Source: a virus. Taken from it: DNA of 21,382 nt. Shown piece by piece: positions 1 through 21,382 of the stretch. Position numbers and translations under genes: made by a program. Below the pieces are notes generated by a model, which saw only the letters and a list, made by a program, of their open reading frames with translations, had not been told where the DNA came from and made no database searches. Numbering within the stretch: position 1 is the stretch's first letter; each line of letters begins with the position of its first letter. Where the stretch lies: positions 1-21,382 of IMG/VR virus record IMGVR_UViG_3300044796_000148; one strand, 5' to 3'.

Positions 1-31
1 GAAGTAGGTTTGCCGCTCCGATTCGGCCAAC
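1..31. repeat. Left copy of 31-bp terminal direct repeat (circular join)
   Basis: These 31 bases are identical to 21352-21382. Joining the ends at this repeat makes the portal reading frame continuous, so the window is most simply a circular molecule of 21,351 bp written with a short overlap. The exact length suggests an assembly overlap rather than a biological terminal redundancy, but the sequence alone cannot separate the two. Confidence 0.93.
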
Positions 32-996
32 AATTTCAACCTCACCTGAGCCTGTATCTTGGACAGCCAAGGCATCAGCGTGAGTTGAAGAAGTTGGCGG
101 TTGAGCGTTTCAAGATTCGCCCATGTGGCGCGGTCCAGGTCGTGAAGGAATACCGGACTGATTTTGAATATCCGGCTGACTTCCGTGATCTGGTGTTTCC
201 GCGTCTCAAGGAATTGCGCGTCCTCTTGCGTGATGCTGAGTGGGGTAAAGGTGACGCCTTCCTCAAGCAATGCAGTCCGGCCCGTGTTGCCGCTACCCGC
301 ATGGATCGCGTCGAAGCTCTTTCTGAGGTTTTCGCGTGCCTGATCGGATAGGGCGATGGGTGATTGCAGGATACCGGCGGGCTTGCAGGCGTTGCCGAAA
401 AATGCCGCGCCCATGCGTTCGGCGGCGCGGGTCAGGGAAAGTGATTCACGGCAAAACCGGATCGGGGAAAGGCCGGTCAAGCCGTCGTATCCAGGTCCGG
501 CCAGATGGAAGATTTGATAGGGGGCGAGATACACCTTTCCCGTGCCGGTCGTGTATTCGTAGATCGTCCCGACTTCGGAATCGTGGGCGACTTTCATCCG
601 GCTCGCGTCCAGAAGCCAGAGGGCAACCGGCCTTCCGGCTTCATCGCGTTCGATCTCGCAATAGGCGTTCCCCCAGAGCAAGACTTGCAACGCCATCGTC
701 TCAAAAATTGACACGCTGGACATATTCGGATTGGGCGCGTCCTTGAGGATTGCGTGTAAAGGATGTTCAAACGCCTCCCGTTTTCCGCCGTCTGGAAGGT
801 GACGATACAGGCAGAGGGGGAGACCCGCAATCAGGCTGGATATCGTCCCAACGGCGCACCAAACCGCCGGTATTTCAAGGCTCGTTTCTTCGTCGATATG
901 GACGCCGGAAACCGGCTTGTCGCCCACCAGTCCGACCCGCTGACCGTCGCCGTAGGACAGCCAACGCCTCATTAGATTTCTAACACTGTTAAACAT
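1..996 (-). CDS. HK97-type portal protein, N-terminal part (continues at 21382)
   Basis: This is the dodecameric channel at the capsid vertex through which TerL pumps DNA and to which the connector proteins dock. The protein is 409 residues when read from 996 to 1 and on through 21351 to 21118. It shows typical portal features: an N-terminal segment ending in a VWCAVGTISSLIAGLPLCLY stretch, then HPL..IL..APNP, a WGNAYCEIERD motif, and a LTGLSPIRF stretch before the clip and stem helices. The ATG at 996 (MFNSVRNLM) lies 16 bases after the TerL stop. It gives a more portal-like N terminus than the in-frame ATG at 972, although neither has a strong Shine-Dalgarno. The gene is broken only by the way the circle was opened, not by mutation. 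Confidence 0.93.
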   Translation of the reverse strand, partial: MFNSVRNLMRRWLSYGDGQRVGLVGDKPVSGVHIDEETSLEIPAVWCAVGTISSLIAGLPLCLYRHLPDGGKREAFEHPLHAILKDAPNPNMSSVSIFETMALQVLLWGNAYCEIERDEAGRPVALWLLDASRMKVAHDSEVGTIYEYTTGTGKVYLAPYQIFHLAGPGYDGLTGLSPIRFCRESLSLTRAAERMGAAFFGNACKPAGILQSPIALSDQARENLRKSFDAIHAGSGNTGRTALLEEGVTFTPLSITQEDAQFLETRKHQITEVSRIFKISPVFLHDLDRATWANLETLNRQLLQLTLMPWLSKIQAQVRLKLLAESERQTYF

Positions 997-1012
997 TAAC
1001 AATATGTAGTCA

Positions 1013-2596
1013 TCACACCGCAAATACTCCCATATTGTCGTAGACGCTAGTTCGCGGTCTGAGCGTGACATTGCTCGTACAGGCTCGCCCATACGCCATT
1101 ATCGTTGCTATCGCCGGATCAATTTTGTCGGTGGAACGGTCTCGGCTCGGCTTCACATTTTCGTATGCGTCATAGTCGAGTCTGGTGTTCGACAACGCCC
1201 ACCTTAGCAGTTTGTTCCCGTCGTGCTTGATTCGTTGTTCGTCGATGGCGACGCCGAACTCTTTCGTCGGGCCGGTATAGTATTTGTGGTTCTGGGGCTG
1301 GCGGAATACAGTGATGCCCTCACTCACCAGTTCCGTAGCCATCTCAAGCGCGTTGTACTGGTCGAAGATAATCTCTTGAACCCGGAACTTGTTCTTGAGG
1401 TCAAGGAGGTAGGACTTTATCCGGCGGTAATCGTTGGCCGTGCCTTGCGTAACCGTCATCACTTTTTCTTGCTCATACTGCCGGTACTTCGGAAGGTTGG
1501 TCTCTTCCCTCTGCCTGCAACCTTCTTCGCATACCCACGCATACGCACGCACGTAGAACTTCCGCTCAGGCAACGCCCATACGCAAGCCACGGAACACGG
1601 ATCGACCGTTTGTGATAAATCAACGCCCACATAGAGGGGGAACGGCCTCAACTCGTCATCCGTCATCGGCGAAAGGCATCGGTCGTATCGCGTCGGGTCA
1701 ATGTAGCAGTCATCGCCCACAACCCATTGATTGAGTCTGTATCGCTTCCAACTCGTCAGACTCGCGTTGCCTTCGTTCTTCGCCCTCTGATAATCTTTGC
1801 GGAAGTCGTCCTCGCTGAACGATACCCCTAGGCTCGGGTTGCTCGTGTGCCAGGTCGCCGGGTCTTCGTTGTCGGATTCCAGTGGGGCGGAATAGATCCG
1901 TGCCAATAGCGACGTGTCAATCACTTCGTCCTTTTGCACGGACTGAGCAAACCGAAAAAGATCGTACCATAGCGTTGATTGATCGTGGCCACTGGTGGAG
2001 ATGATTAGTACGAGTGAGTTGGGGCGGGAAATGGTTGCGTACTCAAGACTGCGGTAGAGTTTGCCGTTGTCACTGTGGGCGTGAAGTTCGTCGATCACGA
2101 GGCAGGATATGTTCTCGCCCTCAGCACTACCGGCGTCGGCACTGAACGACTTGTACCGACCGTTCTTGCTTGCTACGCGAATCTCTTTTGTGCTGTCCGT
2201 GATCTTGGCAAGTTTGAGAAGTTTCGGATTGTTACGAATGCTGTACGCGATTTCGCGGTGTAACTGGCTCGCGTTCTCTCGTGCCGTGCTGGCACTCACT
2301 ACGAATGGGCTAGGCGTTCCACTGCCGTACAACTCGTACAGACAGATTGCCGCCGCTATTTGGTTCTTGCCGTTCTTCTTCGCCATAGACAGGATCGCCC
2401 TCTTGTACTGGCGACTTCCCGACTTGTTGCGGTTGCCGTAAAGTTGTTCGACGAGGTCGCGTTGCCACGGTAGCAGTTTCATACGCTTGCCCGTGCTGGA
2501 CACTAGGGCATAGCGTTCCATGAACTTGACTGCCTTATCGGCCTCTGCCTGATCGTAATAGCATCCTTCGGCCTCTGCCTGTTCTTGATTCGTCAA
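1013..2596 (-). CDS. terL: Terminase large subunit (Terminase_1 type)
   Basis: This is the packaging motor ATPase and nuclease, which docks on the portal and is loaded on DNA by TerS. Read from the TTG at 2596 it has 527 residues. Visible motifs are a Walker A-like SMAKKNGKNQ (residues 70-79), Walker B CLVIDE followed by LHAH (165-174), a coupling motif ISTSG (199-203), and nuclease acidic residues in GVDLS (D326), IIFDQ (D412) and KIDPAIA (D493). An upstream in-frame start at 2644 would overlap the HNH gene by 52 bases. The TTG at 2596 overlaps the HNH stop (TTGA) and follows an AGAAAGAA purine run, which fits translational coupling, so I chose it. The portal gene follows after 16 bases. Confidence 0.95.
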   Translation of the reverse strand: MTNQEQAEAEGCYYDQAEADKAVKFMERYALVSSTGKRMKLLPWQRDLVEQLYGNRNKSGSRQYKRAILSMAKKNGKNQIAAAICLYELYGSGTPSPFVVSASTARENASQLHREIAYSIRNNPKLLKLAKITDSTKEIRVASKNGRYKSFSADAGSAEGENISCLVIDELHAHSDNGKLYRSLEYATISRPNSLVLIISTSGHDQSTLWYDLFRFAQSVQKDEVIDTSLLARIYSAPLESDNEDPATWHTSNPSLGVSFSEDDFRKDYQRAKNEGNASLTSWKRYRLNQWVVGDDCYIDPTRYDRCLSPMTDDELRPFPLYVGVDLSQTVDPCSVACVWALPERKFYVRAYAWVCEEGCRQREETNLPKYRQYEQEKVMTVTQGTANDYRRIKSYLLDLKNKFRVQEIIFDQYNALEMATELVSEGITVFRQPQNHKYYTGPTKEFGVAIDEQRIKHDGNKLLRWALSNTRLDYDAYENVKPSRDRSTDKIDPAIATIMAYGRACTSNVTLRPRTSVYDNMGVFAV

Positions 2597-2865
2597 TTGT
2601 TCTTTCTGTGATCCGCGTGATATCTCATGTGGCAAGCCGCGCATAGACCTACTACGTTCTCACGCCTACGGTCTTGGTTGTCGTGGTTCAAGTGATGCAT
2701 GTGGTTCGACCAATTGGCCTTACATGACGCGCAAATCGGTTGCTCTGCAAGGACGATTTGACGCAACCGGAAGTGTGCGCCGTCGTAACCGCGTGCCTGC
2801 CTGGACGCCTTCGGCCTCTTGTTCGCACTGGTGGGGCTTGGCACTTTCGGGATGTTGTCCGGCAT
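2593..2865 (-). CDS. HNH endonuclease, terminase-associated
   Basis: This 90-residue protein is a small metal-dependent HNH nuclease. A CASC knuckle (about residues 45-48), an HMHHLNHDN segment (about 55-63) and a CAACHMRYH segment (about 75-83) give the two Cys pairs and the His-Asn-His core of the beta-beta-alpha-metal fold. The N-terminal 30 residues are basic and probably disordered. HNH proteins next to terminases in HK97-type phages are known to support cleavage of packaged DNA, often at cos. Here the gene sits between terS and terL rather than before terS. Its ATG shares one base with the terS stop (TGATG), and its own stop overlaps the chosen terL start, so all three are probably co-translated. 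Confidence 0.9.
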   Translation of the reverse strand: MPDNIPKVPSPTSANKRPKASRQARGYDGAHFRLRQIVLAEQPICASCKANWSNHMHHLNHDNQDRRRENVVGLCAACHMRYHADHRKNN

Positions 2866-3170
2866 CAGAGACCGTACTCGTCTTGTATTTCTTGCTCGAC
2901 TTGCATCTTGCTAACTTTCCTGTCCTTGGGGAGCAAGCAAAATTGTTTCGCTAGCGTGATGTATTGCTTCGCCAGCCCGACATAGCGGATCGCTTCCTTG
3001 CTGTCTAATGCGGGCTGACAACCTCTGATGAGTGCCCAGATATCGCAGAGCAGACAGAACGATTCCACGTCGGCCTCCGTGAGCAAGCCGACTTCGTAAA
3101 GCCGTTTCGCGTGCCGATGCCAGAACTTTTCGCTCTCGCCCGTCAGGTGATTTGGTATTCGTATCATCAT
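2865..3170 (-). CDS. terS: Terminase small subunit, P27 family
   Basis: TerS recognises phage DNA at cos or pac and hands it to TerL. The 101-residue protein has the P27-family pattern: EKFWHRHAKRLYEVGLLTEAD (about residues 13-33, quoted here only as its two anchors FWHRH and GLLTEAD), a helical FCLLCDIWALIRG segment, and the closing LAKQFCLLPKDRKVS. The gene starts with two consecutive ATGs (3170 and 3167) without a clear Shine-Dalgarno. The 82 bases upstream (3171-3252) are not coding and are a natural place for a cos or pac site, though I see no defining motif. Confidence 0.88.
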   Translation of the reverse strand: MMIRIPNHLTGESEKFWHRHAKRLYEVGLLTEADVESFCLLCDIWALIRGCQPALDSKEAIRYVGLAKQYITLAKQFCLLPKDRKVSKMQVEQEIQDEYGL

Positions 3171-3252: not shown

Positions 3253-3453
3253 TCACTCACGCCCCCCTACCGCATTGCTGCGGTAGGCCGCAACTTCGTA
3301 TCTGTCCAGCCACTCACTCAGTGCCACGCGGACGATATCGGTATGCTTGATCTTGTACCCGGTTCGCACGCTCTCAGACTTCGCCGCATCACACAATCCC
3401 TTGAACGTATCTGACTCAATCCAGCAACATCTACTAACTACTTTCTTCTTCAT
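3253..3453 (-). CDS. Small ribbon-helix-helix-like regulator
   Basis: This 66-residue protein resembles the Arc/CopG ribbon-helix-helix fold. It has a short strand (about VVSRCCWI, residues 5-12), a helix around DTFKGLCDAAKSES (15-28), and a second helix HTDIVRVALSEWLDRYE (37-53), which matches the usual second helix of these dimers. An open frame extends upstream to 3537, but that extra segment is a run of Ile translated from AT-rich promoter DNA, so I start at the ATG at 3453. A perfect 10-bp inverted repeat lies just upstream and could be its own operator. The last residues are encoded by a palindrome that recurs before the methyltransferase gene. Function as a transcription regulator is inferred from fold and context. 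Confidence 0.65.
   Translation of the reverse strand: MKKKVVSRCCWIESDTFKGLCDAAKSESVRTGYKIKHTDIVRVALSEWLDRYEVAAYRSNAVGGRE
3262..3287. repeat. Palindromic repeat copy 1 (CCTACCGCA / TGCGGTAGG)
   Basis: CCTACCGCA (3266-3274) and TGCGGTAGG (3279-3287) form a 9-bp perfect stem with loop TTGC, preceded by four more C bases. Nearly the same 26 bases recur at 6392-6417, differing only at two positions in and next to the loop. This copy lies inside the 3' end of the ribbon-helix-helix gene. It may be a protein-binding site or an RNA hairpin. Confidence 0.7.
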
Positions 3454-3487: not shown

Positions 3488-3673
3488 ATGCAAATACGAT
3501 TATACGGGCCGGACCACAACCTACACGCTACTATCACTGACTGTTGCTATTGCGACGGAATACACGAGTGGGTCGAACTGTACGAACTTGAACACCCACA
3601 CTATGACCACTATGACCACTCGTGCGTATGCCCTAAGACTGGTGAGGTCATAGGATGGAAGTTGGACGATTAG
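3488..3673 (+). CDS. Small Cys/His-rich protein, possible zinc-binding
   Basis: This is a 61-residue frame read in the opposite direction to its neighbours. It contains CCYC (about residues 19-22), a HPHYDHYDH cluster and CVCP before a GEVIGW tail, a spacing that could bind one zinc ion. The frame is open upstream to 3347, but that extension runs antisense through the ribbon-helix-helix gene. The ATG at 3488 follows a TATAAT (3475-3480) by 7 bases, so a leaderless transcript is possible. It converges with the next gene and overlaps its last 4 bases. I do not recognise a family. The ordered Cys/His pattern is the main reason to think it is expressed. Confidence 0.45.
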   Translation: MQIRLYGPDHNLHATITDCCYCDGIHEWVELYELEHPHYDHYDHSCVCPKTGEVIGWKLDD

Positions 3674-4107
3674 GCTTCCGGCGTGCTCAGTGCCGACGCG
3701 ATGATTGCCGAACCCTGGCTGACTGGCAGAGACTTCGACCTGTACTGGATACTGACGATGTTGCTAACAACTGCGTTGGCTGTCGTGCGCGTGAGCGTGC
3801 AATAGGTGTAACGCTTGCTGGGGCGGATCACGTCTACGATCAGTGCGGTATTGCTGCTAGTGGATGCGGTGAATGGAGTCGTCGCCGCACCGCTAATGGC
3901 CGTGCCGCCGCTATTACTGTTGGTGGCATTTTCGTAGACCGTGAGAGTCAATACGCTCGTATCGGTCACTGCGGCCAGAGTGGCGACAAACGATATCGCG
4001 TCGAAGCCTGCCATATCTACGGCACTTGAGGTAACGGCTGTTTGCGCGGCTGTCGCGCCCGTATTGACGATGTTGAAAACGCATTCTGACGAGAGTTGGT
4101 GAGACAT
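3670..4107 (-). CDS. Putative small virion protein (decoration-like)
   Basis: This 145-residue protein is rich in Thr, Ser, Ala and Val and predicted to be almost all beta-strand. A segment around AVDMAGFDAISFVATLAAVT resembles a widespread phage family of small beta-rich virion proteins, some found near capsid genes as head decoration proteins, and YTYCTLTRTT suggests a second strand pair. It has no signal peptide or membrane segment. It is the first gene after the promoter/terminator region at 4150-4240 and has an AGGAA ribosome site 8 bases before the ATG. Assignment as a virion component rests on composition and position. I cannot say whether it belongs to head or tail. Confidence 0.55.
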   Translation of the reverse strand: MSHQLSSECVFNIVNTGATAAQTAVTSSAVDMAGFDAISFVATLAAVTDTSVLTLTVYENATNSNSGGTAISGAATTPFTASTSSNTALIVDVIRPSKRYTYCTLTRTTANAVVSNIVSIQYRSKSLPVSQGSAIIASALSTPEA

Positions 4108-4159
4108 AACACTAATTCCTATAAGGGCATTGATTTTAGGTATTTAGTGTCCGCGCATG

Positions 4160-4427: not shown

Positions 4428-5177
4428 TCACGATGTCATCATGTTAGTGATCGCCTCTTTCGTCAGGCGTCCGGCCTTCTCGCACGTCTTCCGACATTTG
4501 TTGTTGCCCCGTGCGTCGTCCTGTTCCATCTTCATTGTCGCCAGTTCTTCGGCGAAACGGACGAACGAGCATTCGCGTCGGGTCAGGTTGTCGCGTAGGC
4601 TGTCCGATCTTGTCAGTTCGCGTCGAGCCTTGAGTTCGTCGGTTTTGCCGCCTAATAGCGGCTCATATATCGCGTTGGTGCAGGCACCATACCCCCAATC
4701 GCGGACGCCTCGACTGCCTAGTTCTTCGGTAAATAGATTCCGAATATCAACGCCTCTCAGCCGTTCCGCAATCCATGCGTCCGACTTCCCCTCTCGCTTG
4801 TACGCAAGTGCCGCCCTTTCCCGCGCCCTCTGTATCGCGAGCTCTGGATTCGCATTCTCCTCCATTCGCTCAATCACTATCTGATTGACCGCGATTTGCG
4901 CCTCTGGTGAAATCCACGTCATGTACGCCAGGGCGACTTGCTGCGCCGCCCATGTTCCGTGTCCCCGTGATACCTGGAGTGGCTTTAAAGCCACTCCAAG
5001 CGCGCCGATGAATGCTTTAGTCTCTTTCGTCCGTAGCCATTTGTGCGCTTTCTTGTTGCTGTCGCCGTTCCCGAGATGTTGCCATATTTTAGTAAGTGAA
5101 AACATCCCGTCATCGTTCGCGTCGAAATAGACGCCTTGCTGGTTCGTGATACTCAATCTAATCAATTCCTTACTCAT
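4428..5177 (-). CDS. KilA-N domain protein, antirepressor-like
   Basis: This 249-residue protein has an N-terminal KilA-N DNA-binding domain (about residues 10-105). It shows GMFSLTKIWQHLG, KAHKWLRTKET, and the signature GTWAAQQVALAYMTWISPE (about 74-92). The C-terminal part (about 125-245: GKSDAWIAERLRGVDIRNLF, LRDNLTRRE) resembles the conserved tail seen in DinD-like and phage KilA-N/BRO-type proteins. KilA-N proteins in temperate phages often act as antirepressors or regulators of the lytic switch. The open frame extends to 5234, but that part overlaps the hairpin at 5203-5228. ATGs at 5177 and 5189 are both possible, and I chose 5177 because GAAAG precedes it by 5 bases. No CI-like partner is seen. 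Confidence 0.85.
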   Translation of the reverse strand: MSKELIRLSITNQQGVYFDANDDGMFSLTKIWQHLGNGDSNKKAHKWLRTKETKAFIGALGVALKPLQVSRGHGTWAAQQVALAYMTWISPEAQIAVNQIVIERMEENANPELAIQRARERAALAYKREGKSDAWIAERLRGVDIRNLFTEELGSRGVRDWGYGACTNAIYEPLLGGKTDELKARRELTRSDSLRDNLTRRECSFVRFAEELATMKMEQDDARGNNKCRKTCEKAGRLTKEAITNMMTS

Positions 5178-5202
5178 ATAAACTTTCATATAAATGATAA
5201 AA

Positions 5203-5328: not shown

Positions 5329-5351
5329 TACTAATTATCATGCTTCGCATG

Positions 5352-6076: not shown

Positions 6077-6328
6077 ATGAGTGAGATTCCCGATCAAGTG
6101 TGGCAACTGCTGGATCAAGCGGAGCAGTTCGCCGACGAAGTCAGGACGTTTTTCGTCAAGGACGCGGACCAAATTGATACGCTCGACGAAATCGCGGAAC
6201 ACCCGGTCTTCGTCAGTGCTACAGAACTGAAAACCGCGATGCGGGATTTCCTCGTGAGTAGCGCACTGCGTCAGCATTACCGCGTTCCCGACGAGTGGTC
6301 CGCCTTGCTGGCCGCAACGAAGAAGTAA
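6077..6328 (+). CDS. Unknown 83-residue acidic protein
   Basis: I do not recognise this protein. It is 83 residues, acidic, and looks mainly helical: a QVWQLLDQAEQFADEVRTFF helix, then DQIDTLDEIAEHP, and a C-terminal half with RQHYRVPDEWSALLAATKK. There is no membrane segment or Cys cluster. The start is firm: GGAG lies 7 bases before the ATG at 6077, while the frame's earlier ATG (6050) lies in the leader hairpin. It precedes the methyltransferase by 109 bases and probably shares its promoter. In a temperate phage, a small protein here could be a regulator or a recombination directionality factor, but nothing in the sequence decides this. Confidence 0.7.
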   Translation: MSEIPDQVWQLLDQAEQFADEVRTFFVKDADQIDTLDEIAEHPVFVSATELKTAMRDFLVSSALRQHYRVPDEWSALLAATKK

Positions 6329-6437: not shown

Positions 6438-7580
6438 GTGCGAAAGATGAAGGCCGAATTTCTCTCTCACGACAAGCAACCCGTGCATCCCGTGGCGTTG
6501 CTGCAACCGCAGATGTCAGCGGAACAATCCCACGCCCTCGTTCTCCACCTGCAAGAGAACGGCCAGATAGAACCCGTGCTGCTCTACCAAGGACGCGTCC
6601 TCTCGCCCGATCACATAGCGGTAATGGACGCACTCCACATGCTGGATCGCCCCATCTTGTACAAGCACTTTCGCGGGTCAATCAACGGCATCCTCACGCC
6701 GTACCTGACGAGTACAACGCGGTACAAGTTCCAGGTCCAGGCGACGAAAGAAAGTCGGGCCGCGTGGTTCTTGCTCGCCGCCGAACAATACCCGGATGTC
6801 GGCAAACACCTGGACGCCTTGAGGCGTGCTTCTCAAGAGCGAATGAACGACGGGAAGAAATCGACGGTCGGCAAGACTACCGCGCAGGCAATCGCGGATC
6901 AATTGGGGTGCGGTGCCAGAACCATAGAGAACGTCATCACGATACAGAAGCTATACCCGCAACTGTTGCCACGGATCGCGAAGGGCGAACTTACCACTCG
7001 TGCGGCCATTCTTGAGGGGGCGAAGACGAACAAGCCCCACCCGTTGCCCGATGGTAAGTATCGCGTCATCTATGCCGACCCGCCTTGGTACTATGCCTCT
7101 TCCGACCATTACGGGGGGAATCCGGGCGATCATTACAAGATGATGCAGCTACAACCCATCTGCGATATGCCCGTCCTTCGACACGCCGCCGATGACGCGG
7201 TCTTGTTCTTGTGGGTGACGAATATGTATCTCCAACGCTCGTTCCAGGTCGTCGAGGCGTGGGGGTTCAAGTTTAGCACTTGCTTCATCTGGCGAAAGCA
7301 GACACACGCCAGGGCAACCGGCGGGAACTTCGTCAACCTGGAACACGAATACCTATTCGTATGCCCACGCGGGAAGATGCTCACGCCGAAAAAAGTGTTC
7401 CCGAGCGTGATCGACTACCGACTTCCGAAAAGGGTTCATTCGCAAAAGCCTAGAGAAGTCCGTGAGATGATTGACGCGATGTACCCGCCCCCGAAGAAAG
7501 GCCAAGATCGGCTTGAACTGTTCTGCCGACCCGGCCCCGACTACCCGAAGCACTGGAAGACCTACGGCAACGAAACTTGA
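6438..7580 (+). CDS. ParB-like/MT-A70 DNA adenine methyltransferase
   Basis: This 380-residue, two-part protein is predicted to methylate adenine N6 in DNA. Residues about 15-80 resemble a ParB-N/sulfiredoxin-like domain (NGQIEPVLLYQGRVL), but the usual DGRHR-type motif reads SPDHI. A helix-turn-helix-like segment follows (AQAIADQLGCGARTIENVI, about 149-167). The C-terminal half is an MT-A70 methyltransferase with catalytic DPPW (214-217), VLFLWVTN (about 255-262) and HSQKPREV near the end. The GTG at 6438 is chosen because GGAG lies 7 bases upstream, while the ATG at 6447 is too far from it. No restriction enzyme is nearby, so an orphan enzyme that shields phage DNA or marks regulatory sites is likely. 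It is convergent with the integrase gene. Confidence 0.9.
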   Translation: MRKMKAEFLSHDKQPVHPVALLQPQMSAEQSHALVLHLQENGQIEPVLLYQGRVLSPDHIAVMDALHMLDRPILYKHFRGSINGILTPYLTSTTRYKFQVQATKESRAAWFLLAAEQYPDVGKHLDALRRASQERMNDGKKSTVGKTTAQAIADQLGCGARTIENVITIQKLYPQLLPRIAKGELTTRAAILEGAKTNKPHPLPDGKYRVIYADPPWYYASSDHYGGNPGDHYKMMQLQPICDMPVLRHAADDAVLFLWVTNMYLQRSFQVVEAWGFKFSTCFIWRKQTHARATGGNFVNLEHEYLFVCPRGKMLTPKKVFPSVIDYRLPKRVHSQKPREVREMIDAMYPPPKKGQDRLELFCRPGPDYPKHWKTYGNET

Positions 7581-12893: not shown

Positions 12894-13730
12894 CTAGTAT
12901 GTTCCTGGCGCGAGTCCGCCAGTAATCCCGCCACTCCCCCCGGTTACGACGATGCCGCCGACAATAACCGTCCCGTCGATCAGAGTCGTCGTCGCCCCGT
13001 ACTTGATATTCGTAGTGGGGTCATTGCCGATGTTGATCGCGAAACAAGGCGCGATTGTCCCGTCTGGACTGCCAAGCACTGCCGCCCCACTGTTAGGATC
13101 GACGTCCAGGGCGAGCGAGGTATAACCCGGCGTCGATTGATTGGCGTACAACCTCAGACACGGGCCTTGACTGCCAGTGTAAGCGAACGGCATAAACCCG
13201 CAGATGTAGGGAAGTCCATTCCCCGAAACCAGAAAGTAATTTGCATTAAAACAAGTGATCCCGTCGTTGAATTGTTTCCTTCCGCACAACGTCTGTGCGG
13301 CGTTCGTGATAGTACCGGCGGGCACGGAACAAGTCGCGACAGGTACGATCCGGGTATCCGTCATGTACATTGGCAAGCCGGACGTAATGCCCGTGATGCC
13401 CGTACCTATGTCGCCTGCGGACTGGCAAAAATAGTGATGGTCCGCAACGAAGTTGTTGCCCTGATCGACCATATAGACCGTGTTCGTCGATAGCACTTGC
13501 GTGGCCGCATTCTTGTTGAAACTGACGATGTTGCCTGTCCAGATTTTCAACGAACCAGCCGTGATAGTCTTCGTCGTGTCCGCAACGGCCTTCACGAGAA
13601 CAACGGCCTGACCATAGACTTGCAGAGGGACGCTATCGGCTTGCGGGTCGTCGAAATCTACGTTCCCGCCTTGCATCAGGTTTCGGAGTTTTGCGGCACT
13701 GTCGGCAGAGACTAATGATGGTTTGGGCAT
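12894..13730 (-). CDS. Putative virion/tail protein before the fibre
   Basis: This 278-residue protein has a short helical N terminus (KPSLVSADSAAKLRNLMQGG) and is otherwise beta-rich, with many Thr, Gly and Val and a glycine-rich end (TGGSGGITGGLAPGTY). The N-terminal part could attach to the tail tip and the rest could form an oligomeric beta structure carrying the fibre. Its ATG shares one base with the previous stop (TAATG), and its own stop lies 8 bases before the fibre start. I do not recognise a named family. The assignment to the tail rests on position and composition. Confidence 0.6.
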   Translation of the reverse strand: MPKPSLVSADSAAKLRNLMQGGNVDFDDPQADSVPLQVYGQAVVLVKAVADTTKTITAGSLKIWTGNIVSFNKNAATQVLSTNTVYMVDQGNNFVADHHYFCQSAGDIGTGITGITSGLPMYMTDTRIVPVATCSVPAGTITNAAQTLCGRKQFNDGITCFNANYFLVSGNGLPYICGFMPFAYTGSQGPCLRLYANQSTPGYTSLALDVDPNSGAAVLGSPDGTIAPCFAINIGNDPTTNIKYGATTTLIDGTVIVGGIVVTGGSGGITGGLAPGTY

Positions 13731-14632: not shown

Positions 14633-14639
14633 ATTTGCC

Positions 14640-16337
14640 TTATAGGATGTCGAATCCGAGTTGTCCTTTGCTGTCCGTGACAACCTCGATGAGTTTGTTC
14701 GCGCTCGCGAGTTGCTGTTTCCTGATTTCTTGCGCTTCGGCGAATGCCCGCTTCAATTCGGCTTGCGGGTCTTGCCTCTCGCCTTGAAGTTGTGCCTTGA
14801 TAATGCTGGTGACGCTGTCCTGACTGCCTCTCAGTTGCCCTGAAACGGTCTTCGTCGTGCCGCCGTCGCCCGTGGCACTCTGCAAAGCCCTGGACGCCTC
14901 TAGGACGCCTTCCCGGTACTGGTCGAAGGTGAGCCTTCCCGACTTGAATAGCGTTTGCAGTCCTTGAATGGAGCGTGCGTAGGTCTCAAGAGGGGGCATC
15001 TTGATATTGCCGAATGCTATCTCGGAGTTCTTCGCCAGTTCGGCAAGGACACGGGCATTTTGCAAGACGTCAGGTGTCGCGCCTTGCTTTTGCAGGTCCA
15101 AAATCTTTACTTCCGCACTGGTCTTGCCGATCCTTGCGAAACTGTCTCTCAATCCCGATTCAAGATCGGCAATGCCCTTGAGGATTTCGGCGGTGAGTGC
15201 GGAAATCGGGTTGAGTTGCTTCGCCTTATCGCCCGACTTCTTCGCCAGGTCGTCGAAGGTGTCAAAGTATTTCTTCGCCTTGCCGATGTTGTCGGTGTAT
15301 TCAAGGCTGAGGTCGGCGAAGAACACGTCAATCTTATCACTCGCGCCCGTGAGTTGGTTGGCTAGGCTCGTGTCGCCTAGAACCTTCGCCAGTTTGGCCG
15401 CACTCTGAATAGCCAACTGGATAGGCTTGACGAATACACGTGTAATCTCAATGCCGATGAAGGCGAGTACATCGGCAATCGCTGCGAAACCATAGACAAG
15501 ACTCTTGATTCCGAAGTCCAGTACCTTCGGGGTGTTCTTCGCGAGGCTGTTCTTGAGTCCGTCCCACATTCCCGACAACCTGGACAGCCCCTCTTGTGCT
15601 TCAATCACCTTGGCTGAGTCAATCGCGTTGAAACTGATACCCGCCGCAAGTGCCGCATCAGAGAACGCCTTGATTCCCTTGTCGCCCTTGTTGAGCAACT
15701 GTTGAAGTTCCGCGTACTTATCGCCGAACAACTCAATGCCGAGTCGTGATTGTTTGGCCGGATCTTGTATAGCCTTCAACTTCTCGGCAATCTGGCCGAT
15801 GGCTTGATCTATCGGAAGTTTCTTGAGTGCTTCGGCTGACAACCCGAGTTGGTCGAACACGCGGGCCGATTCGCCGCCGCTCGCATGAACGACGGATTGC
15901 AACTTGAGTAGTCCGCCCTTGAGGGCATCGGCGGACACTCCCGCAACCTTCGCCGCAAATTGAATGCTGGTGAAGCCTTCCACGTCGGTGCCGAGTGCCT
16001 TCGCCGCCTCTCGTGCCGCCCTCATCTGCGTACCGACCTGTTGAACGACGTAGGCCAGTGCGGTTGCCCCCGCGATAGCCCCCGCGAAGATGGTTGCAGG
16101 CGTTGCCGCACTGGCGATTCTCCCGAGAGTGGAGAACGCGGACTGTACGCCTCCCTGAGCCACACTCGCGAAACTGTCGCCCACCTTGGCGAAGATGTTG
16201 CCGCCGGATGACTTCTTCGCCTGGACTTGTTTCGTCCAACTCTCAATCTTCGTACCGGCCTGATTCAACCCGGTGTTGAGTGCCGCCCCATCAACATCTA
16301 GGAGGAGACTCGCCTTCGCTATACTCGTACTAGCCAT
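14640..16337 (-). CDS. Tail tape measure protein
   Basis: This 565-residue, Ala- and Lys-rich, mostly helical protein sets tail length and is expelled during DNA injection. Features include the MASTSIAKASLLLDVDGAAL start, a TPATIFAGAIAGATALAYVV hydrophobic stretch (about 80-100), the tape-measure block EGFTSIQFAAKVAGVSADAL (about 121-140), and a second hydrophobic region near 280-315 (LDFGIKSLVYGFAAIADVLA). At about 1.5 angstroms per residue the tail would be roughly 85 nm, a short siphovirus tail. The ATG at 16337 overlaps the end of the frameshifted chaperone by 8 bases and has a GGGGGAAG ribosome site. Confidence 0.9.
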   Translation of the reverse strand: MASTSIAKASLLLDVDGAALNTGLNQAGTKIESWTKQVQAKKSSGGNIFAKVGDSFASVAQGGVQSAFSTLGRIASAATPATIFAGAIAGATALAYVVQQVGTQMRAAREAAKALGTDVEGFTSIQFAAKVAGVSADALKGGLLKLQSVVHASGGESARVFDQLGLSAEALKKLPIDQAIGQIAEKLKAIQDPAKQSRLGIELFGDKYAELQQLLNKGDKGIKAFSDAALAAGISFNAIDSAKVIEAQEGLSRLSGMWDGLKNSLAKNTPKVLDFGIKSLVYGFAAIADVLAFIGIEITRVFVKPIQLAIQSAAKLAKVLGDTSLANQLTGASDKIDVFFADLSLEYTDNIGKAKKYFDTFDDLAKKSGDKAKQLNPISALTAEILKGIADLESGLRDSFARIGKTSAEVKILDLQKQGATPDVLQNARVLAELAKNSEIAFGNIKMPPLETYARSIQGLQTLFKSGRLTFDQYREGVLEASRALQSATGDGGTTKTVSGQLRGSQDSVTSIIKAQLQGERQDPQAELKRAFAEAQEIRKQQLASANKLIEVVTDSKGQLGFDIL

Positions 16338-16644
16338 TCTTCCCCCTTGCTAACGCCATGAAATACGCTTGCGTACTTTCCCAGTGCCACACCTTCTTTT
16401 CGGCCTCGAACTTCGGAATGAACTGTTCCAGTTTGGCCTTGCCGCCCCATACGCTAGCCGTCGTCCAGGCGTTCAGAGCGTGCCGGTAGTCGTCGCGTTG
16501 CTCCGGCCAGCCTTCCAGCGCGTAATACGCTAGCCATAGCGTGTATTCCGGGCTGGTCATCCTCTGCCGAAACTCTTGTAGTGTGCAACGCATGTGGCTT
16601 GCGAGTCTGAGGGACAACCTCAATTCCGGGTCGTCCCTTATGCG
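16330..16644 (-). CDS. Tail assembly chaperone T-part, made by -1 frameshift
   Basis: This frame encodes 104 residues and is fused to the first 108 residues of the upstream chaperone when ribosomes slip at 16650-16644, giving a protein of about 212 residues. It contains FRQRMTSPEYTLWLAYYALEGWP, typical of the T part of gpG/gpGT-type tail chaperones, then a helical KLEQFIPKFEAEKKVWHW segment. It has no ATG with a ribosome site, only an internal TTG at 16623, which agrees with expression by slippage. The longer product presumably bridges tape measure and tail tube, as gpGT does in lambda. Confidence 0.88.
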   Translation of the reverse strand, partial: RIRDDPELRLSLRLASHMRCTLQEFRQRMTSPEYTLWLAYYALEGWPEQRDDYRHALNAWTTASVWGGKAKLEQFIPKFEAEKKVWHWESTQAYFMALARGKNG

Positions 16645-16650
16645 TTTTTT
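16610..16650 (-). promoter_or_regulatory. -1 programmed frameshift signal
   Basis: The minus strand has the slippery heptamer A AAA AAC (16650-16644) in the correct phase of the upstream gene (codons AAA AAC). A 5-nt spacer GCATA follows. Then comes a stem AGGGACGACC (16638-16629), loop CGGAATTGA, and GGTTGTCCCT (16619-16610), 10 pairs with one G-U. The zero-frame stop TAA follows one codon after the slip (16640-16638). All three parts of a classical signal are present. Confidence 0.93.
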
Positions 16651-16967
16651 GCGTCGTCAACCGCGTTCGTGCCGATGCCGTTATGGGACAACGCCTCTAG
16701 TGCGATCCGCTCTAGGACTGCACCATTCTTGTCCGCCAACGCCTTCACGTCGTCGTGGCTGAATATTTTGTTGCCCACTGGATCGCACAATGTCAGGGCG
16801 ACGACTTGCGCGATCCAGTCCGCCCCCTCCGACTTGTGGATTGCCTGAACCGCCGCACGCTCGGCACAAGTCCAGGTCTTGAGGCAAACATCTACGTTCC
16901 ATTCCGGCACGGGGAACGGCTTCAACACGCAATCGTTCGCCGATAGTATTTGGTCTCTGAGATTCAT
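16638..16967 (-). CDS. Tail assembly chaperone, G-like
   Basis: This 109-residue protein is the short chaperone product, expected to coat the tape measure while the tail tube assembles. It has PFPVPEWNVDVCLKTWTCAERAAVQ (residues about 18-42), a known pattern of these proteins, then helical DWIAQVVALTLCDPVGNKIF and HDDVKALADKNGAVLERIALEAL. The family placement comes from this pattern together with its place between tail tube and tape measure. The start is well supported by GGGGAG 7 bases upstream. Its last codons carry the slippery site. Confidence 0.88.
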   Translation of the reverse strand: MNLRDQILSANDCVLKPFPVPEWNVDVCLKTWTCAERAAVQAIHKSEGADWIAQVVALTLCDPVGNKIFSHDDVKALADKNGAVLERIALEALSHNGIGTNAVDDAKNA

Positions 16968-16970: not shown

Positions 16971-17378
16971 TTAGCTCCCCGGTGTAAAGACAACTGCGCC
17001 CTCGACTCTGAGGCTACATTTGATATCCATAACGGCATCAATCGTTCCGTCGACTTCCGCGTTCTGTAGTTTCCCGTTGAACGCGAAAGTTGAGGCGTCG
17101 GGGAATGTCAGAAGGTATGCCTTGCTCACGCCTTGAAGGGCATAGCATCGGGCCAAATCTTCCTTGACATACAGGAGGGTAAATGTGCAGTCGCCCGGCT
17201 CAATCAAGGCCGGAACGTAACGCTTGTACGAATCGCCCTGATTCATAAACGATGCGTCGGCCCATTGCTGATCCGCCTTCGGCGAGTTGAACTCTTTCAG
17301 CATCGCGAAATTCTGTTGCGCCGACATTGACCCGTCATTCACTGACAAACTAGAACCTAGTCCTATTGATGCACTCAT
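16971..17378 (-). CDS. Major tail tube protein
   Basis: This is the hexameric ring protein that stacks to form the siphovirus tail tube. It has 135 residues from the ATG at 17378. The sequence is beta-rich with the usual tail tube profile: KEFNSPKADQQWADASFMNQGDSYKRYVPALIEPGDCTFTLLY (quoted only in part: GDSYKRYVPALIEPGDCTFT) and a C-terminal DAVMDIKCSLRVEGAVVFTPG. At 135 residues it is compact, with no extra Ig-like domain. Another in-frame ATG at 17384 lies inside a hairpin arm. The 17378 ATG has AGAGG at 7 bases, but this site is buried in a 14-bp stem. Confidence 0.85.
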   Translation of the reverse strand: MSASIGLGSSLSVNDGSMSAQQNFAMLKEFNSPKADQQWADASFMNQGDSYKRYVPALIEPGDCTFTLLYVKEDLARCYALQGVSKAYLLTFPDASTFAFNGKLQNAEVDGTIDAVMDIKCSLRVEGAVVFTPGS

Positions 17379-17380
17379 GC

Positions 17381-17417
17381 ACATACCTCTATAAAGTTTA
17401 GACTTATAGAGGTATGT
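17381..17417 (-). promoter_or_regulatory. Ribosome-site-sequestering hairpin before the tail tube gene
   Basis: ACATACCTCTATAA and TTATAGAGGTATGT (17417-17404 and 17394-17381 on the minus strand) are perfectly complementary over 14 bases, with loop GTCTAAACT. The 3' arm contains the Shine-Dalgarno AGAGG (17390-17386), 7 bases before the ATG at 17378. No T tract follows, so it is not an ordinary terminator. Confidence 0.85.
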
Positions 17418-17436: not shown

Positions 17437-17805
17437 TTACCCCCAAACGTCAAATGTCTGTTGGGTGTGATAACCGACTTGCTCTTGCAGTTCTTGCGAG
17501 TTGGTGAGGAAGCAACCTTGCACGTCGTTGTCTTTCCAGGTTGAGAAAGTGCCATACACCGCATCGGCGACGGAACGGCAGTCGTCCTCGTTGATCGCCC
17601 ACGTGTCAATTTGGTAGGTGTATTTTTTCAACCCGACCGGGCCGGACATTGCAACCACGTCTTGTGTCGCCTGCCTTGAGTACAGGATTGCGGGGGCGGT
17701 TTGGATGGAGTAATCAGGCGTTGCTATGACGGGAAAGATATGCTCGCCCACTAGGTCGGTTATCGCCGTCGTCGTTATGAGTTTGGTATAGATCGTCGAA
17801 TCCAT
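17437..17805 (-). CDS. Tail terminator / completion protein (DUF3168-like)
   Basis: This 122-residue protein probably caps the tail tube and joins it to the head connector. It shows the family outline: MDSTIYTKLITTTAITDLVGEHIFPVI at the N terminus, then PAILYSRQ and KYTYQIDTWAINEDDCRSVADAVY. The gene order (HK97 gp10-like, this gene, tail tube) is the normal one. Its ribosome site GAGG overlaps the stop of the preceding gene, 4 bases before the ATG. The hairpin at 17381-17417 follows it. Confidence 0.8.
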   Translation of the reverse strand: MDSTIYTKLITTTAITDLVGEHIFPVIATPDYSIQTAPAILYSRQATQDVVAMSGPVGLKKYTYQIDTWAINEDDCRSVADAVYGTFSTWKDNDVQGCFLTNSQELQEQVGYHTQQTFDVWG

Positions 17806-17806: not shown

Positions 17807-18202
17807 TTACCTCAATTCCAGGTAGATCTCCGCCTTGAGAACTTGGCGGACTGCCTCTAGGTATTTGTCCTTGTTCGCCTGCCACGCCGGTTGGAGGAAC
17901 GGCCTCTTGTGCGGGCCGATCTCAAGTGGTGCCGAGTACCTTCCGGGCTGGACGTTCTGGCCGTTGTACGCCTTGACGAACTTGCTTCGCGGGCCGACCA
18001 CTCCATACGCTACCGTGCTGCCCCTGGCGGAATCTACCTTCGTGCTAATGCTCTGCCTGAGTGCGCCGGATCGCATCGGGGCGGACGCCTTGAGGTCTGA
18101 ACGGATCAAGGCAGTTCCCGCCCGGATCGCCTTTTTGTAGGCGTTCTTTTCCAGGCGATTCGCCAAGCGTTCCAACTTTTTCAGTTGCAAAATAATCTTC
18201 AT
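17807..18202 (-). CDS. HK97 gp10-like tail/connector protein
   Basis: This 131-residue basic protein has a helical N terminus (KKLERLANRLEKNAYKKAIRAG), the family mark APMRSGALRQSI (about 41-52), and PHKRPFLQPAW near the end. These mark the HK97 gp10 family of neck proteins that link connector and tail. GGAG lies 7 bases before the ATG, inside the end of the previous gene, whose stop is one base away. Confidence 0.88.
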   Translation of the reverse strand: MKIILQLKKLERLANRLEKNAYKKAIRAGTALIRSDLKASAPMRSGALRQSISTKVDSARGSTVAYGVVGPRSKFVKAYNGQNVQPGRYSAPLEIGPHKRPFLQPAWQANKDKYLEAVRQVLKAEIYLELR

Positions 18203-18203: not shown

Positions 18204-18530
18204 TCAGGTCTCCAGGCTCGGCAAGGTGTGGGCGTATATCACGGTTTCGTTCGTGTCGTGGTTCGGCATCACTCCGACCACTACCAACAATTTGTCGAAG
18301 TAGGTGTCATGCAACCTGTCTTTCGCATCAACGCTCGGGAACTGCCTCAAGTGTATTTCGTAATCTACTTCCGAGTTGAGAACGCCATAGGCTAATTTCT
18401 TGCTGGCACTTATCGGCTTGGAAGAACCCCAGAGCGTACCGTTGCCCGTGAAGGTCTCTTGATCTTGGCCGGTCGTGCCGCTCTTGCTCACGCTGCGTTG
18501 CAACCATATAAACTCGCGGTTGTAGTTCAT
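18204..18530 (-). CDS. Head-tail joining (stopper) protein
   Basis: This 108-residue beta-rich protein fits the Phage_H_T_join / stopper group in position and profile: an N-terminal EFIWLQRSVSKSGTTGQDQETF, a SEVDYEIHLRQFPSVDAKDRL segment and a final GVMPNHDTNETVIYAH. The ATG overlaps the previous stop by four bases (ATGA), so it is translationally coupled. The exact family is less certain than the role. Confidence 0.7.
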   Translation of the reverse strand: MNYNREFIWLQRSVSKSGTTGQDQETFTGNGTLWGSSKPISASKKLAYGVLNSEVDYEIHLRQFPSVDAKDRLHDTYFDKLLVVVGVMPNHDTNETVIYAHTLPSLET

Positions 18531-19168
18531 TCAAAGTCCAGGTCGTAAGGGGTGTATAGCGGTCGGTTCATGTTGCTAACCCAATTCAACTTGTACATGG
18601 CGACAACATTTTTCCAGCCAATCGGGAGCGTGTCCAGTTTGTCTGTCGTGGTCTCGCTTCGCTGGTTGAACCAATGACTCGCCATCAGCATGATTGCTTG
18701 CTTTATCATGGGCGGGACGGAATTAGCATCCGCGTAACCGGCGGTGAATTGCACTATGATTTTCGGACTGATACGGTAGGACAGAGCCGGGAAAGACGGG
18801 AACACTCTCCAATCTGGATACCAGACGGAAGGGACGATTCTACCCGGCTCGCGTGCCGTATCAACGCTATAGTTCGCGGTCGACCATGTGGTGAGGGTGT
18901 CTGACGAGTCGTAATATTGAACGCTTGAGACTGCGTTCAGTGGGGCTTTCGGACAGCGTATCACTCTGGGGAAGGCGTCCAGGTATAGCGTCCAGGTTGC
19001 AGGCATCAATTGCCGGTCGGTTTGCTGCTCGAATAGGTCTCGCGCACTTGAGATAAATCCGGCCAGCAATGCGTCTTCGCTGGTGGTGTTGAGGCGAAGG
19101 AACGCCTTGAGGTCAGCAACCGCCACGGGTTCATCTGTCGGCGGTGTAGTCTGTTTCAATCCATACAT
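18527..19168 (-). CDS. Head-tail connector (adaptor) protein
   Basis: This 213-residue protein resembles the phiE125 gp8 / HK97 gp6 adaptor group. It has an N-terminal PVAVADLKAFLRLNTTSEDALL and a YFDLFEQQ-like helix (SARDLFEQQTDRQLMPATW, about 41-59), then VQFTAGYADANSVPPMIKQA and IMLMASHWFNQRSE. Twelve copies are expected to sit under the portal. A terminator-like hairpin lies between it and the capsid gene, so the connector genes are probably made in smaller amounts than capsid. Confidence 0.88.
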   Translation of the reverse strand: MYGLKQTTPPTDEPVAVADLKAFLRLNTTSEDALLAGFISSARDLFEQQTDRQLMPATWTLYLDAFPRVIRCPKAPLNAVSSVQYYDSSDTLTTWSTANYSVDTAREPGRIVPSVWYPDWRVFPSFPALSYRISPKIIVQFTAGYADANSVPPMIKQAIMLMASHWFNQRSETTTDKLDTLPIGWKNVVAMYKLNWVSNMNRPLYTPYDLDFE

Positions 19169-19253: not shown

Positions 19254-20537
19254 TTAGGCCAGAGTACCGGCAGACAACGCACGGTTGGGGCCGAACCAAT
19301 TCGCGTCAGAGCGCAGCCACGCGATAAAAGCTACGAGCCCGTACTCTACGTACCGATCGGCGCTCCTAATCAATTGCACGGAAGCCACATCACGAATATA
19401 AAAATCGGTCGGATCGCCGAAGGCAATAACTTTCTTGCCGCTACCCGTGGTCGGTATGCTGTTAGAAATGACAACCTCTTTCCCGAACAACGTCGGTACT
19501 CCCGAATCGTCAAAAGATCGGTCAAGGTTTAGAAGCGGTCGATTGTTTGAGTCCAAAAGTCCTTGTATCGTCGCCGCCTGAGTATCCGACATAAAAAACT
19601 TTCCGTTCTTACGGTAGGCCAAATCAACAGAGTAATAGAGCGATACGAGGTTAGCATAGGTCGTGCTCCAACTCGTTACCGTGGCTGTCGCGTTATTGAC
19701 GATGCCGCTCGGCTTGGAAGATCCATTACCGACCATGAAGTCCGCCTCCTGAGCGCGACCGATTCTCAAGCCGAGTTGTCGAGCCATGTAGTTTTCCAGG
19801 TCAAACTTACTGTCCTGCAAAAGCTCAAGGGACAACTGCACCATAGATTTGTAATTGTACGCGCCTAGGGTCTTCTGAGCGAATACCGTATCCGTCGCGG
19901 ACAGTGCCGAGTTTTCCGCAGTGATTGCGGCCAGATTACCCGAGTCGTCATTCGTCGGGAACGGTAGGCTCTGACCGTTCTCGGAACTGATGACCGTGGC
20001 GTAATCTCGGATCGGGCAAAAATACTTCAACGCCTCGACGATCTTGTCGCCGAAGTCTTGCGGCACGGTGTAACCGCCCGCACTGTTAGTACCTTCTACC
20101 TGAGCGCGAGTGTTGAGGTTGAGTGTGTATTGTGGTGCCGCGACATTGACACCCATCCGATCCGCAGAACGGAAGGTATCAAGGCTGGTGTGGCGGTGGG
20201 CGTCCGTGCCGTAGGTCATCCACGCCTTTAGGACGTTGCCCATTTCACGCTTGTCGTTCTGGGGGGAACGAATGGAGCGTACATACGGGCCGGATTCCTT
20301 CACGGCGCGTTTGCTCTGGTGGAGGCTTTCCTCTGCGGTCTTGACTCGCAATTTGCGCTCCGCGTCGTCGGCCTGATCGGCCACGTCGTCCGCCTGACCT
20401 AGCAGAGAATCAACCTGTTGTTCTTCTTCCGGCGTCAAGTCGCGCTTGTCGTCGTCTGCGGCGTCTACGATGATTTTGGCGTTACTGATGAGTTGCGCCC
20501 GCTGTTCTTTCATCGCCTGAATGTTGTTCGTTTCCAT
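19254..20537 (-). CDS. HK97-type major capsid protein
   Basis: This 427-residue protein builds the icosahedral shell. Residues about 1-90 form a charged coiled coil (DKRDLTPEEEQQVDSLLGQ, ADQADDAERKLRVK), matching a scaffold-like delta domain removed by the protease. The HK97 fold follows: TNSAGGYTVPQDFGDKIVEA, the TNDDSGNLAAITAENSA loop, FDLENYMARQLGLRIGRAQE spine helix, NGSSKPSGIVNN and FGKEVVISNSIP. The ribosome site GGAG is 4-5 bases from the ATG. No separate scaffold gene is needed in this family. Confidence 0.95.
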   Translation of the reverse strand: METNNIQAMKEQRAQLISNAKIIVDAADDDKRDLTPEEEQQVDSLLGQADDVADQADDAERKLRVKTAEESLHQSKRAVKESGPYVRSIRSPQNDKREMGNVLKAWMTYGTDAHRHTSLDTFRSADRMGVNVAAPQYTLNLNTRAQVEGTNSAGGYTVPQDFGDKIVEALKYFCPIRDYATVISSENGQSLPFPTNDDSGNLAAITAENSALSATDTVFAQKTLGAYNYKSMVQLSLELLQDSKFDLENYMARQLGLRIGRAQEADFMVGNGSSKPSGIVNNATATVTSWSTTYANLVSLYYSVDLAYRKNGKFFMSDTQAATIQGLLDSNNRPLLNLDRSFDDSGVPTLFGKEVVISNSIPTTGSGKKVIAFGDPTDFYIRDVASVQLIRSADRYVEYGLVAFIAWLRSDANWFGPNRALSAGTLA

Positions 20538-20576
20538 GTGTCTCCTATAGGGTACGTCTCGTATCTATGCGGACGC

Positions 20577-21134
20577 CTATGCATTTCTCAATCTGATCTT
20601 GGCTCGCATCAATCTTGTGCGGCCTATTGGTGCTGCAACTCCGAGTTGCATACTGCGTAAATCTACGGTCGTGCCGTTCTCGTATGCCGGGAACGCAACG
20701 ATAGAACACTCGTACAAAGTGAGGTCTCGTAACTGTCTGGTGGGGATATCGCCCGGCGTCCATTCGTCTTCAACCGTGGTGAAGCCGAAGGAACACGAAT
20801 CAACATCGCCACGCCGAATGCTCTCCACGAGGTCTCTCGCTTCACTCGTGTCCGGCAATTCGCACTCGTACCAGAGACCGACATTATCCACGCCCACCCT
20901 CAGCGTTCCCGACTTCGTGCGTCCTAGAATGCTCTGGGGGTTGTGGTCGCGAAGGAATCGGATATCCGGCTGTTCGACGAGTGATCGCGTGAAGGCGTCC
21001 GGGTGAATGACTTCGTTGAAGGCGTTGCCACGCACGTCGCGGATCAAGGCGGCGGGGCCGAATGTCGCCGCATAGCCCGCTATCGTCCGTGGCTTGTCCG
21101 TGCGTATCACTTGCTGGTTACTTCGTGTTTCCAT
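20577..21134 (-). CDS. HK97 family prohead protease
   Basis: This 185-residue serine protease of the U35 type trims the capsid delta domain and then itself. Catalytic candidates are H64 in RFLRDHNP and S115 in DSCSFGF, with an acidic residue likely in the LYECSIVAFP segment. The open frame extends up to 21212, but that extra N terminus is Arg-rich and overlaps the portal end. The ATG at 21134 (METRSNQQ) has AGGAG upstream and overlaps the portal gene by only 17 bases. The capsid gene follows after 39 bases. Confidence 0.9.
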   Translation of the reverse strand: METRSNQQVIRTDKPRTIAGYAATFGPAALIRDVRGNAFNEVIHPDAFTRSLVEQPDIRFLRDHNPQSILGRTKSGTLRVGVDNVGLWYECELPDTSEARDLVESIRRGDVDSCSFGFTTVEDEWTPGDIPTRQLRDLTLYECSIVAFPAYENGTTVDLRSMQLGVAAPIGRTRLMRAKIRLRNA

Positions 21135-21382
21135 CGGTCTCCTGTTGCTTGTCGTCGCCCTGGCCGTGCGGCACTTGCGGCGGGGCTGGTGGCGGGGCTG
21201 GTGGCTCGTCAATGCCGGGGATCGGGTCTAGCCTGTCCTCTGCCCTGACTTCGCTAGGAAGCATCCAGGGGCGGTTGCCCGTGGCAATCGCGTAGGCTTG
21301 ATTTCTCGTCAGTTTGTCCGGCTGTAGGAAGTCAGAGACGTCGAACTCAGCGAAGTAGGTTTGCCGCTCCGATTCGGCCAAC
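21118..21382 (-). CDS. Portal protein, C-terminal part (continued from position 1)
   Basis: These 88 codons continue the portal gene beyond the circular join; 21352-21382 repeats 1-31. The sequence reads TYFAEFDVSDFLQPDKLTRN, then AYAIATGNRPWMLPSEVRAE, the usual C-terminal crown of HK97 portals, and ends in a Pro-rich, flexible tail. The portal stop overlaps the prohead protease start by 17 bases. Confidence 0.93.
   Translation of the reverse strand, partial: LAESERQTYFAEFDVSDFLQPDKLTRNQAYAIATGNRPWMLPSEVRAEDRLDPIPGIDEPPAPPPAPPQVPHGQGDDKQQETDGNTK
21352..21382. repeat. Right copy of 31-bp terminal direct repeat
   Basis: Identical to 1-31. See the left copy for interpretation as a circular overlap. 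Confidence 0.93.

Follow-up and report, generated by a model that had tools for sequence, protein, structure and literature searches.

How does a tailed virus that encodes a full virion leave its host and copy its DNA, when genes for neither task can be recognised in it? This question is raised by the IMG/VR virus record IMGVR_UViG_3300044796_000148 (21,382 bp, analysed over its whole length and hereafter called the window), for which an initial annotation listed packaging, head, tail, integration, methylation and KilA-N functions, all of them now supported by PHROG or Pfam matches (Table 1), but no lysis, replication or CI/Cro-type genes. The window is the complete circular genome of a small tailed virus, and the lack of recognisable lysis and replication genes is upheld by profile searches of every plausible gene. 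Beyond that annotation, the absence of known lysis families is a trait of a whole prophage family, the host group is the order Gemmatales (Planctomycetota), and candidate replication genes of the relatives are missing from the window. The element is tentatively explained as a satellite-virus-like or release-deficient temperate phage, whose release and replication would be supplied in trans; this is our preferred reading, though it falls somewhat short of an even chance.

Bases 1-31 of the window are identical to bases 21352-21382, and removal of one copy of this 31-bp terminal repeat gives a circle of 21,351 bp, in which a single 441-aa portal open reading frame (ORF) spans the join. As the portal of a relative, G091, can be aligned continuously across the join and is homologous to the window on either side of it (RKLLSPEDRRTYFAEFD in G091 aligned with LKLLAESERQTYFAEFD in the window), the closure is backed by coding sequence beyond the short overlap, and the genome is complete, as the initial annotation had supposed. 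The terminase, portal, protease, HK97-fold capsid, adaptor, tail tube, chaperone and tape measure genes stand in the order of an HK97-type siphovirus (Caudoviricetes). A tRNA scan of the window found none, and an Rfam search gave nothing convincing.

No near relative came from single-protein scans of IMG/VR with the terminase large subunit (TerL) and the major capsid protein (MCP), a broad TerL profile reached matches of 28-34% only, a portal peptide pattern search found no closer phage, and the tail proteins had weak or no matches in INPHARED. In a scan of genome contigs with an MCP alignment as the query, the best match was a Gemmataceae metagenome-assembled genome (MAG), which encodes homologs of 14 window proteins with nearly all of their order kept and a TerL 54% identical. 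Searches of 398 genomes from the class of this MAG, and then of 102 genomes from its order, the name of which (Gemmatales) rests on the MAG, identified five strong prophage relatives (TerL identity: G111 61%, G091 60%, G001 55%, G213 48% and G255 47%), all with the core gene order of the window; since their cores are about 17-22 kb, the size of the window is normal for the group. An IMG/VR scan with the relatives' TerL profile retrieved seven fragments or prophages (46-61%), and one of these, L243 (21.5 kb), proved to be the G255 prophage. As in a temperate phage, a serine integrase is encoded and prophage relatives reside in host chromosomes; these homologies place the element in a Gemmatales prophage family, and its own host is accordingly inferred to be a Gemmatales bacterium.

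The G091 element (22.28 kb) has a comM/yifB-like frame on both sides (left SPHHTI, right SEAGMVGG, read by eye) and a serine integrase at one end; except for this comM-like junction, read from protein frames, a search for exact direct repeats gave no convincing attachment sites. Since the G001 and G213 elements touch contig ends, it is uncertain how far they extend. Over 16.7 kb, G111 matches the G091 element at 84-86% DNA identity, but it has different flanks and an integrase of another kind (tyrosine-type by eye, no Pfam match). These observations bear on the domesticated life style that the initial annotation had considered, i.e. a decaying or gene-transfer-agent-like prophage that has lost its lysis and replication genes. 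Such a history would account for the missing modules and for the residence of family members in chromosomes, but the integrases have been kept and swapped between near-identical cores, the cargo genes vary between members, the virion genes are under purifying selection (ratios of nonsynonymous to synonymous substitution, dN/dS, mostly 0.04-0.3), and a free circular form was assembled. The family is also sporadic rather than fixed, because only 5 of the 102 Gemmatales genomes carry a TerL match at E < 1e-150; a gene transfer agent is a fixed, vertically inherited cluster that has no integrase. As judged from these comparisons, the family consists of mobile, maintained elements, and domestication is very unlikely.

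The window proteins were searched against PHROGs and Pfam, and some also against NCBIfam, PDB sequences and Foldseek; small ORFs for the profile searches were picked by hand, and ORFs antisense to or embedded within called genes were covered by a hydrophobicity scan only, without hidden Markov models (HMMs). Neither PHROGs nor Pfam assigned any called gene to the endolysins, holins or spanins, and the window has no recognisable lysis cassette of its own, a feature usual in HK97-type siphoviruses but not strictly defining. Nor were such functions found in the frames where the initial annotation thought that lysis or replication genes might hide: the 83-aa protein belongs to no family, Pfam shows no hydrolase domain in the tape measure, and the "Cys/His protein" of that annotation, which could be the HNH endonuclease or the 61-aa ORF, does not look lytic in either case. 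Outside the called genes, the hydrophobicity scan gave doubtful candidates only, namely upstream extensions of the 66-aa and 61-aa ORFs into an AT-rich promoter and an 87-aa ORF at 7577-7840 (+). The latter was considered as a holin and rejected, as it contains a terminator-like hairpin, overlaps the 3' end of the integrase gene, has no ribosome-binding site by eye, and has no match in PHROGs or Pfam.

The same gap recurs in the five independent prophages, one of them precisely bounded. A Pfam search of the 46 non-virion ORFs of the five elements found no lysis family among the 25 families listed out of 31, and no convincing holin-like ORF follows their tail genes; the gap is therefore a family trait and not the mark of a truncated record. 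A truncated or misassembled larger phage, whose lysis and replication genes lay in the lost part, would agree with a terminal overlap of just 31 bp and with the absence here of the candidate replication gene found behind the fibre gene in relatives. Since the portal homology runs through the join, and since relatives of 17-22 kb, one with both ends defined, likewise have no lysis genes, this explanation is, if anything, still less likely than domestication.

As regards replication, PHROGs and Pfam gave no match in the window to any helicase, primase, polymerase or initiator family. In the relatives G001 and G213, a 368-387-aa protein is encoded behind the fibre, whereas in the window the integrase follows the fibre directly. 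The G001 protein has a weak match to REP_ORF2/G2P (PF23343, E 0.0034, below the cut-off) and HUH-like motifs by eye (HFH and YCAYIVK), while G111 and G091 encode a 440-aa protein with a primase-like motif, also by eye, at this place. As PHROGs, NCBIfam and PDB searches assigned these proteins to no replication family, the names "Rep-like" and "primase-like" rest on the sub-threshold PF23343 match and on motifs read by eye. It seems, then, that the window lacks a gene which its relatives have, and for which a replication function is a candidate.

Whether lysis genes of common types would have been seen in a Gemmatales prophage was judged from the order as a whole, where matches to the endolysin families PF00959, PF05838, PF13539 and PF08291 in the 102 genomes were set against the locations of portal genes. 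At four loci of G131, two of G035 and one of G186, a portal gene has a GH24, M15_4 or M15_3 endolysin gene 19-24 kb downstream on the same strand. Two ORFs come after the GH24 gene at G131:C16, a short hydrophobic one and then one that combines a single hydrophobic helix at its N-terminus with a long charged helix; by eye, the two are holin/spanin-like. As other Gemmatales prophages show GH24 or M15 endolysins, such genes would be recognised in the window. The downstream parts of four other Gemmatales prophages contain no searched lysis gene.

Small siphovirus-like elements with a possible dependence on a helper are an already known kind. Two satellite viruses of Streptomyces, MiniFlayer (17.4 kb) and MulchRoom (14.8 kb), have their own virion genes and no replicase (PMC10690885). 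In gene content they resemble the window: these small genomes of tailed phages encode a terminase, a portal and a capsid of their own, in MiniFlayer a tail fibre too, but no replicase; their annotated records list no endolysin, and their GC content is below that of the host, as it is in the window's family (about 8-16 points below the host flanks). They differ in host phylum, in having a known helper, and in terminal repeats of 1.1 and 1.6 kb as against 31 bp. HK97-like temperate siphophages share with the window the gene order terminase small subunit (TerS), HNH, TerL, portal, protease, MCP, adaptor, closure, neck, terminator, major tail protein, tail assembly chaperone and tape measure, but the window is about half their size and has no lysis, replication or CI/Cro region. 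Capsid-forming phage-inducible chromosomal islands (cf-PICIs) likewise integrate and encode an HK97-type capsid and packaging functions, but they use helper tails and carry PICI-type regulators and replicases; they encode a capsid without tail genes, whereas the window encodes a tail tube, chaperones, a tape measure and a fibre. A separate case is L004 (CP099479), a 16.9-kb Roseomonas mucosa plasmid with TerL, portal, protease, capsid and HNH genes, no annotated tail genes and an inserted IS21 transposase, which reads as a capsid-only phage-plasmid or satellite. Among the open-licence papers searched, no description of such a Gemmatales family was found.

In the preferred reading, the element would be a compact (about 17-22 kb) temperate siphovirus-like entity which integrates by its large serine recombinase and, to judge from its complete gene sets, assembles virions from its own capsid, tail and packaging proteins. 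Exit from the cell would be outsourced, the lysis functions coming from a co-resident or co-infecting phage, and in the window member the start of DNA replication would likewise be supplied in trans; induction may be controlled by the KilA-N/DinD-like protein and perhaps also by the 66-aa ORF. Supply from outside, which the initial annotation had offered as one possibility, fits because the gap is family-wide, because other phages of the order have lysis genes, and because MiniFlayer and MulchRoom provide a precedent; like a satellite virus, the window encodes its own virion and no replicase. A bolder version, that this is an undescribed Gemmatales lineage with full tailed virions, obligately outsourced lysis and graded dependence, in which most members keep a replication gene and the window has lost that as well, is held to be rather unlikely.

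Several observations weigh against a satellite-like nature. No helper phage was identified, the relatives seem to carry their own replication genes, and no satellite hallmark (capsid-resizing or helper-interference gene) was recognised in the window. Every carrier genome of the five relatives has at least one further portal locus, but portals occur in 73 of the 102 genomes, so that a further portal is expected by chance, and co-resident portals were set aside as uninformative about a helper. In addition, a searched endolysin lies within 30 kb at only 6 of 27 other strong portal loci (>=230 bits), and unrecognised lysis may therefore be common in the order. None of the 102 genomes has a match to Amidase_2 (PF01510), which 6 of 14 control genomes do have, and the envelope may for this reason need unusual enzymes.

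These last two results also speak for an autonomous temperate phage, which we consider almost as likely and give nearly equal weight. Its lysis or release gene would be unrecognised or its exit non-lytic, and its replication would be started by the host or by an unrecognised initiator; variants include a single-gene lysis protein, a hydrolase in the fibre, tail-tip or tape measure, and a chronic or vesicle-like exit. Room for such functions is left by the 278-aa, 145-aa, 61-aa, 66-aa and 83-aa proteins, none of which has a family, but among the genes shared by the five relatives none remains to be assigned to lysis, and the ORFs behind the tail genes include no convincing membrane protein. Small lytic siphophages, namely those of Arthrobacter cluster AN (15.5 kb), Rhodococcus RRH1 (14.2 kb) and Microbacterium cluster EE (17.4 kb), have a minimal siphovirus set like that of the window, and cluster AN shows that a siphophage can be without DNA-metabolism genes; clusters AN and EE nevertheless keep endolysin genes, while the window has an integrase and no endolysin. 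Non-lytic release is reported for a Lactococcus siphophage and for the deep-sea planctomycete phage ZRK32 (21.9 kb; PMC10945688). ZRK32 resembles the window in its size of about 22 kb and its planctomycete host, but it was rejected as a homologous precedent, as it has no detectable protein homology and its record is partial and marked UNVERIFIED.

The claim that CI/Cro-type regulators are missing stands in part: HMM searches of the window found no such family, but "no regulator" would be too strong, as a KilA-N/DinD-like protein and a 66-aa ORF with a palindrome are present. The 10-bp inverted repeat at the start of this ORF has a local-shuffle P of 0.003 (reached in 0.3% of trials), and a related copy lies at 4220-4248. 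The model of the 66-aa ORF has two helices, with a predicted local distance difference test score (pLDDT) of about 80 in the helices, and is compatible with a ribbon-helix-helix (RHH) protein. Foldseek gave no ribbon-helix-helix match for it and a PDB sequence search gave nothing; as the two-helix fold has no structural match, the ORF is a candidate repressor only.

Transcription of the minus strand (Table 1) runs from the KilA-N, 145-aa and 66-aa genes through TerS, HNH, TerL, portal, protease and capsid to the adaptor, head closure, neck, tail terminator, tail tube, two chaperones and tape measure, and ends with the 317-aa tail protein, the 278-aa protein, the fibre and the large serine integrase; the plus strand encodes the 83-aa protein, the MT-A70 methyltransferase and the 61-aa Cys/His ORF. 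Most genes have a GGAG/GAGGT-type ribosome-binding site. For the 317-aa protein, the AlphaFold model (pLDDT 53) is too uncertain to use, and a PDB sequence search gave nothing.

Table 1. Features of the window; minus-strand genes are given in order of transcription around the circle, followed by the remaining features.
Feature	Position	Strand	Evidence or remark
KilA-N protein, DinD-like C-terminus	4428..5183	-	PF04383 7.3e-15; PRK11525 DinD 1.2e-5; PDC-S13 4.8e-24
145-aa protein	3670..4107	-	no family; one IMG/VR match, L109, 30% over 116 aa
66-aa candidate small DNA-binding (RHH-like?) repressor	3253..3453	-	two-helix model
Terminase small subunit	2865..3170	-	PF05119 4.2e-7
HNH endonuclease beside terminase	2593..2865	-	PHROG_589 8.1e-9
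Terminase large subunit (543 aa)	1013..2644	-	PHROG_9 1.8e-132; PF20441/PF03354; 46-61% identical to Gemmatales prophages
Portal, N-terminal part (rest at 21118-21351 beyond join)	1..1092	-	37-43% identical to relatives
Portal, C-terminal part	21118..21382	-	441-aa ORF on circle; 21352-21382 repeats 1-31
Prohead protease (S78)	20577..21212	-	PF04586 1.1e-43
HK97-fold major capsid protein	19254..20537	-	PHROG_10 3.9e-62
Head-tail adaptor (gp6-like)	18527..19168	-	PHROG_442 2.6e-27
Head closure protein	18204..18530	-	PF05521 9.3e-6
Neck / HK97 gp10-like	17807..18202	-	PHROG_5 2e-15
Tail terminator	17437..17805	-	PHROG_78 1.5e-5
Major tail protein	16971..17384	-	PHROG_158 1.2e-7
Tail assembly chaperone	16638..16967	-	PHROG_344 7.4e-20
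Tail assembly chaperone T-like	16330..16623	-	PF06223 4.1e-14
Tape measure (565 aa)	14640..16337	-	PHROG_2854 5.4e-27; no hydrolase domain by Pfam
Tail protein (317 aa)	13730..14683	-	homologs at same place in Gemmatales prophage relatives
278-aa protein, tail-tip position	12894..13730	-	no family
Tail fibre (1147 aa)	9442..12885	-	PHROG_2631 5.6e-26
Large serine integrase	7706..9244	-	PHROG_95 3.4e-63, PF00239, PF07508
MT-A70 adenine methyltransferase	6438..7580	+	PF05063 4.8e-18; weak ParB-like HTH region before catalytic domain
83-aa protein	6077..6328	+	GGAG ribosome-binding site; no family
61-aa Cys/His-rich ORF, divergent from 66-aa ORF	3488..3673	+	no family
Perfect 10-bp inverted repeat, candidate operator, between two divergent start codons	3454..3483	.	

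Several further elements were observed in the window and its relatives. Both the start codon and the ribosome-binding site of the gene for the major tail protein lie within a 37-nt hairpin with perfect arms (17381-17417), an arrangement that suggests that tail tube synthesis is controlled at translation. Two copies (92%) of a 26-nt hairpin element, CCCCCCTACCGCAnTGnTGCGGTAGG, are located at the end of the 66-aa ORF (3262-3287) and just before the methylase gene (6392-6417), and two terminator-like repeats (4153-4187 and 4323-4357), 83% identical, lie downstream of the KilA-N gene on the minus strand. A strong GC-rich hairpin (AAGCGGGCGTGC/GCACGCCCGCTT) at 5340-5400, in a low-GC intergenic region beside an AT-rich stretch, is a possible origin or regulatory element. 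The tail terminator gene, located between the neck and tail tube genes in the window, has its homolog upstream of TerS in most relatives. In the G111 prophage (L223:2135-3829), genes for a membrane protein and a metallo-beta-lactamase-fold protein adjoin the integrase, and the latter protein matches PDC-M48B (1.5e-35), a candidate family of anti-phage defence; PIN and GIY-YIG genes occupy the equivalent place in the G091 element. Many genomes of the order also encode a single portal gene of 140-200 bits (e.g. G091:C2:257171, G111:C105:13811 and G001:C6:143966), 81% identical in protein sequence between G091 and G111, which is a candidate for a widely shared phage-like element.

If release is outsourced, satellite viruses would be present in a bacterial phylum with little-studied phages, and relatives with and without the replication gene would make the step from phage to satellite traceable within one family; the graded-dependence version, if true, would give a series from near-autonomous phage to satellite virus. 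If the element is autonomous, an as yet unrecognised lysis or exit mechanism would be encoded in at most a few small genes. Under either reading, the family now has a host group and a mapped genome, and the candidate genes are narrowed down to a few.

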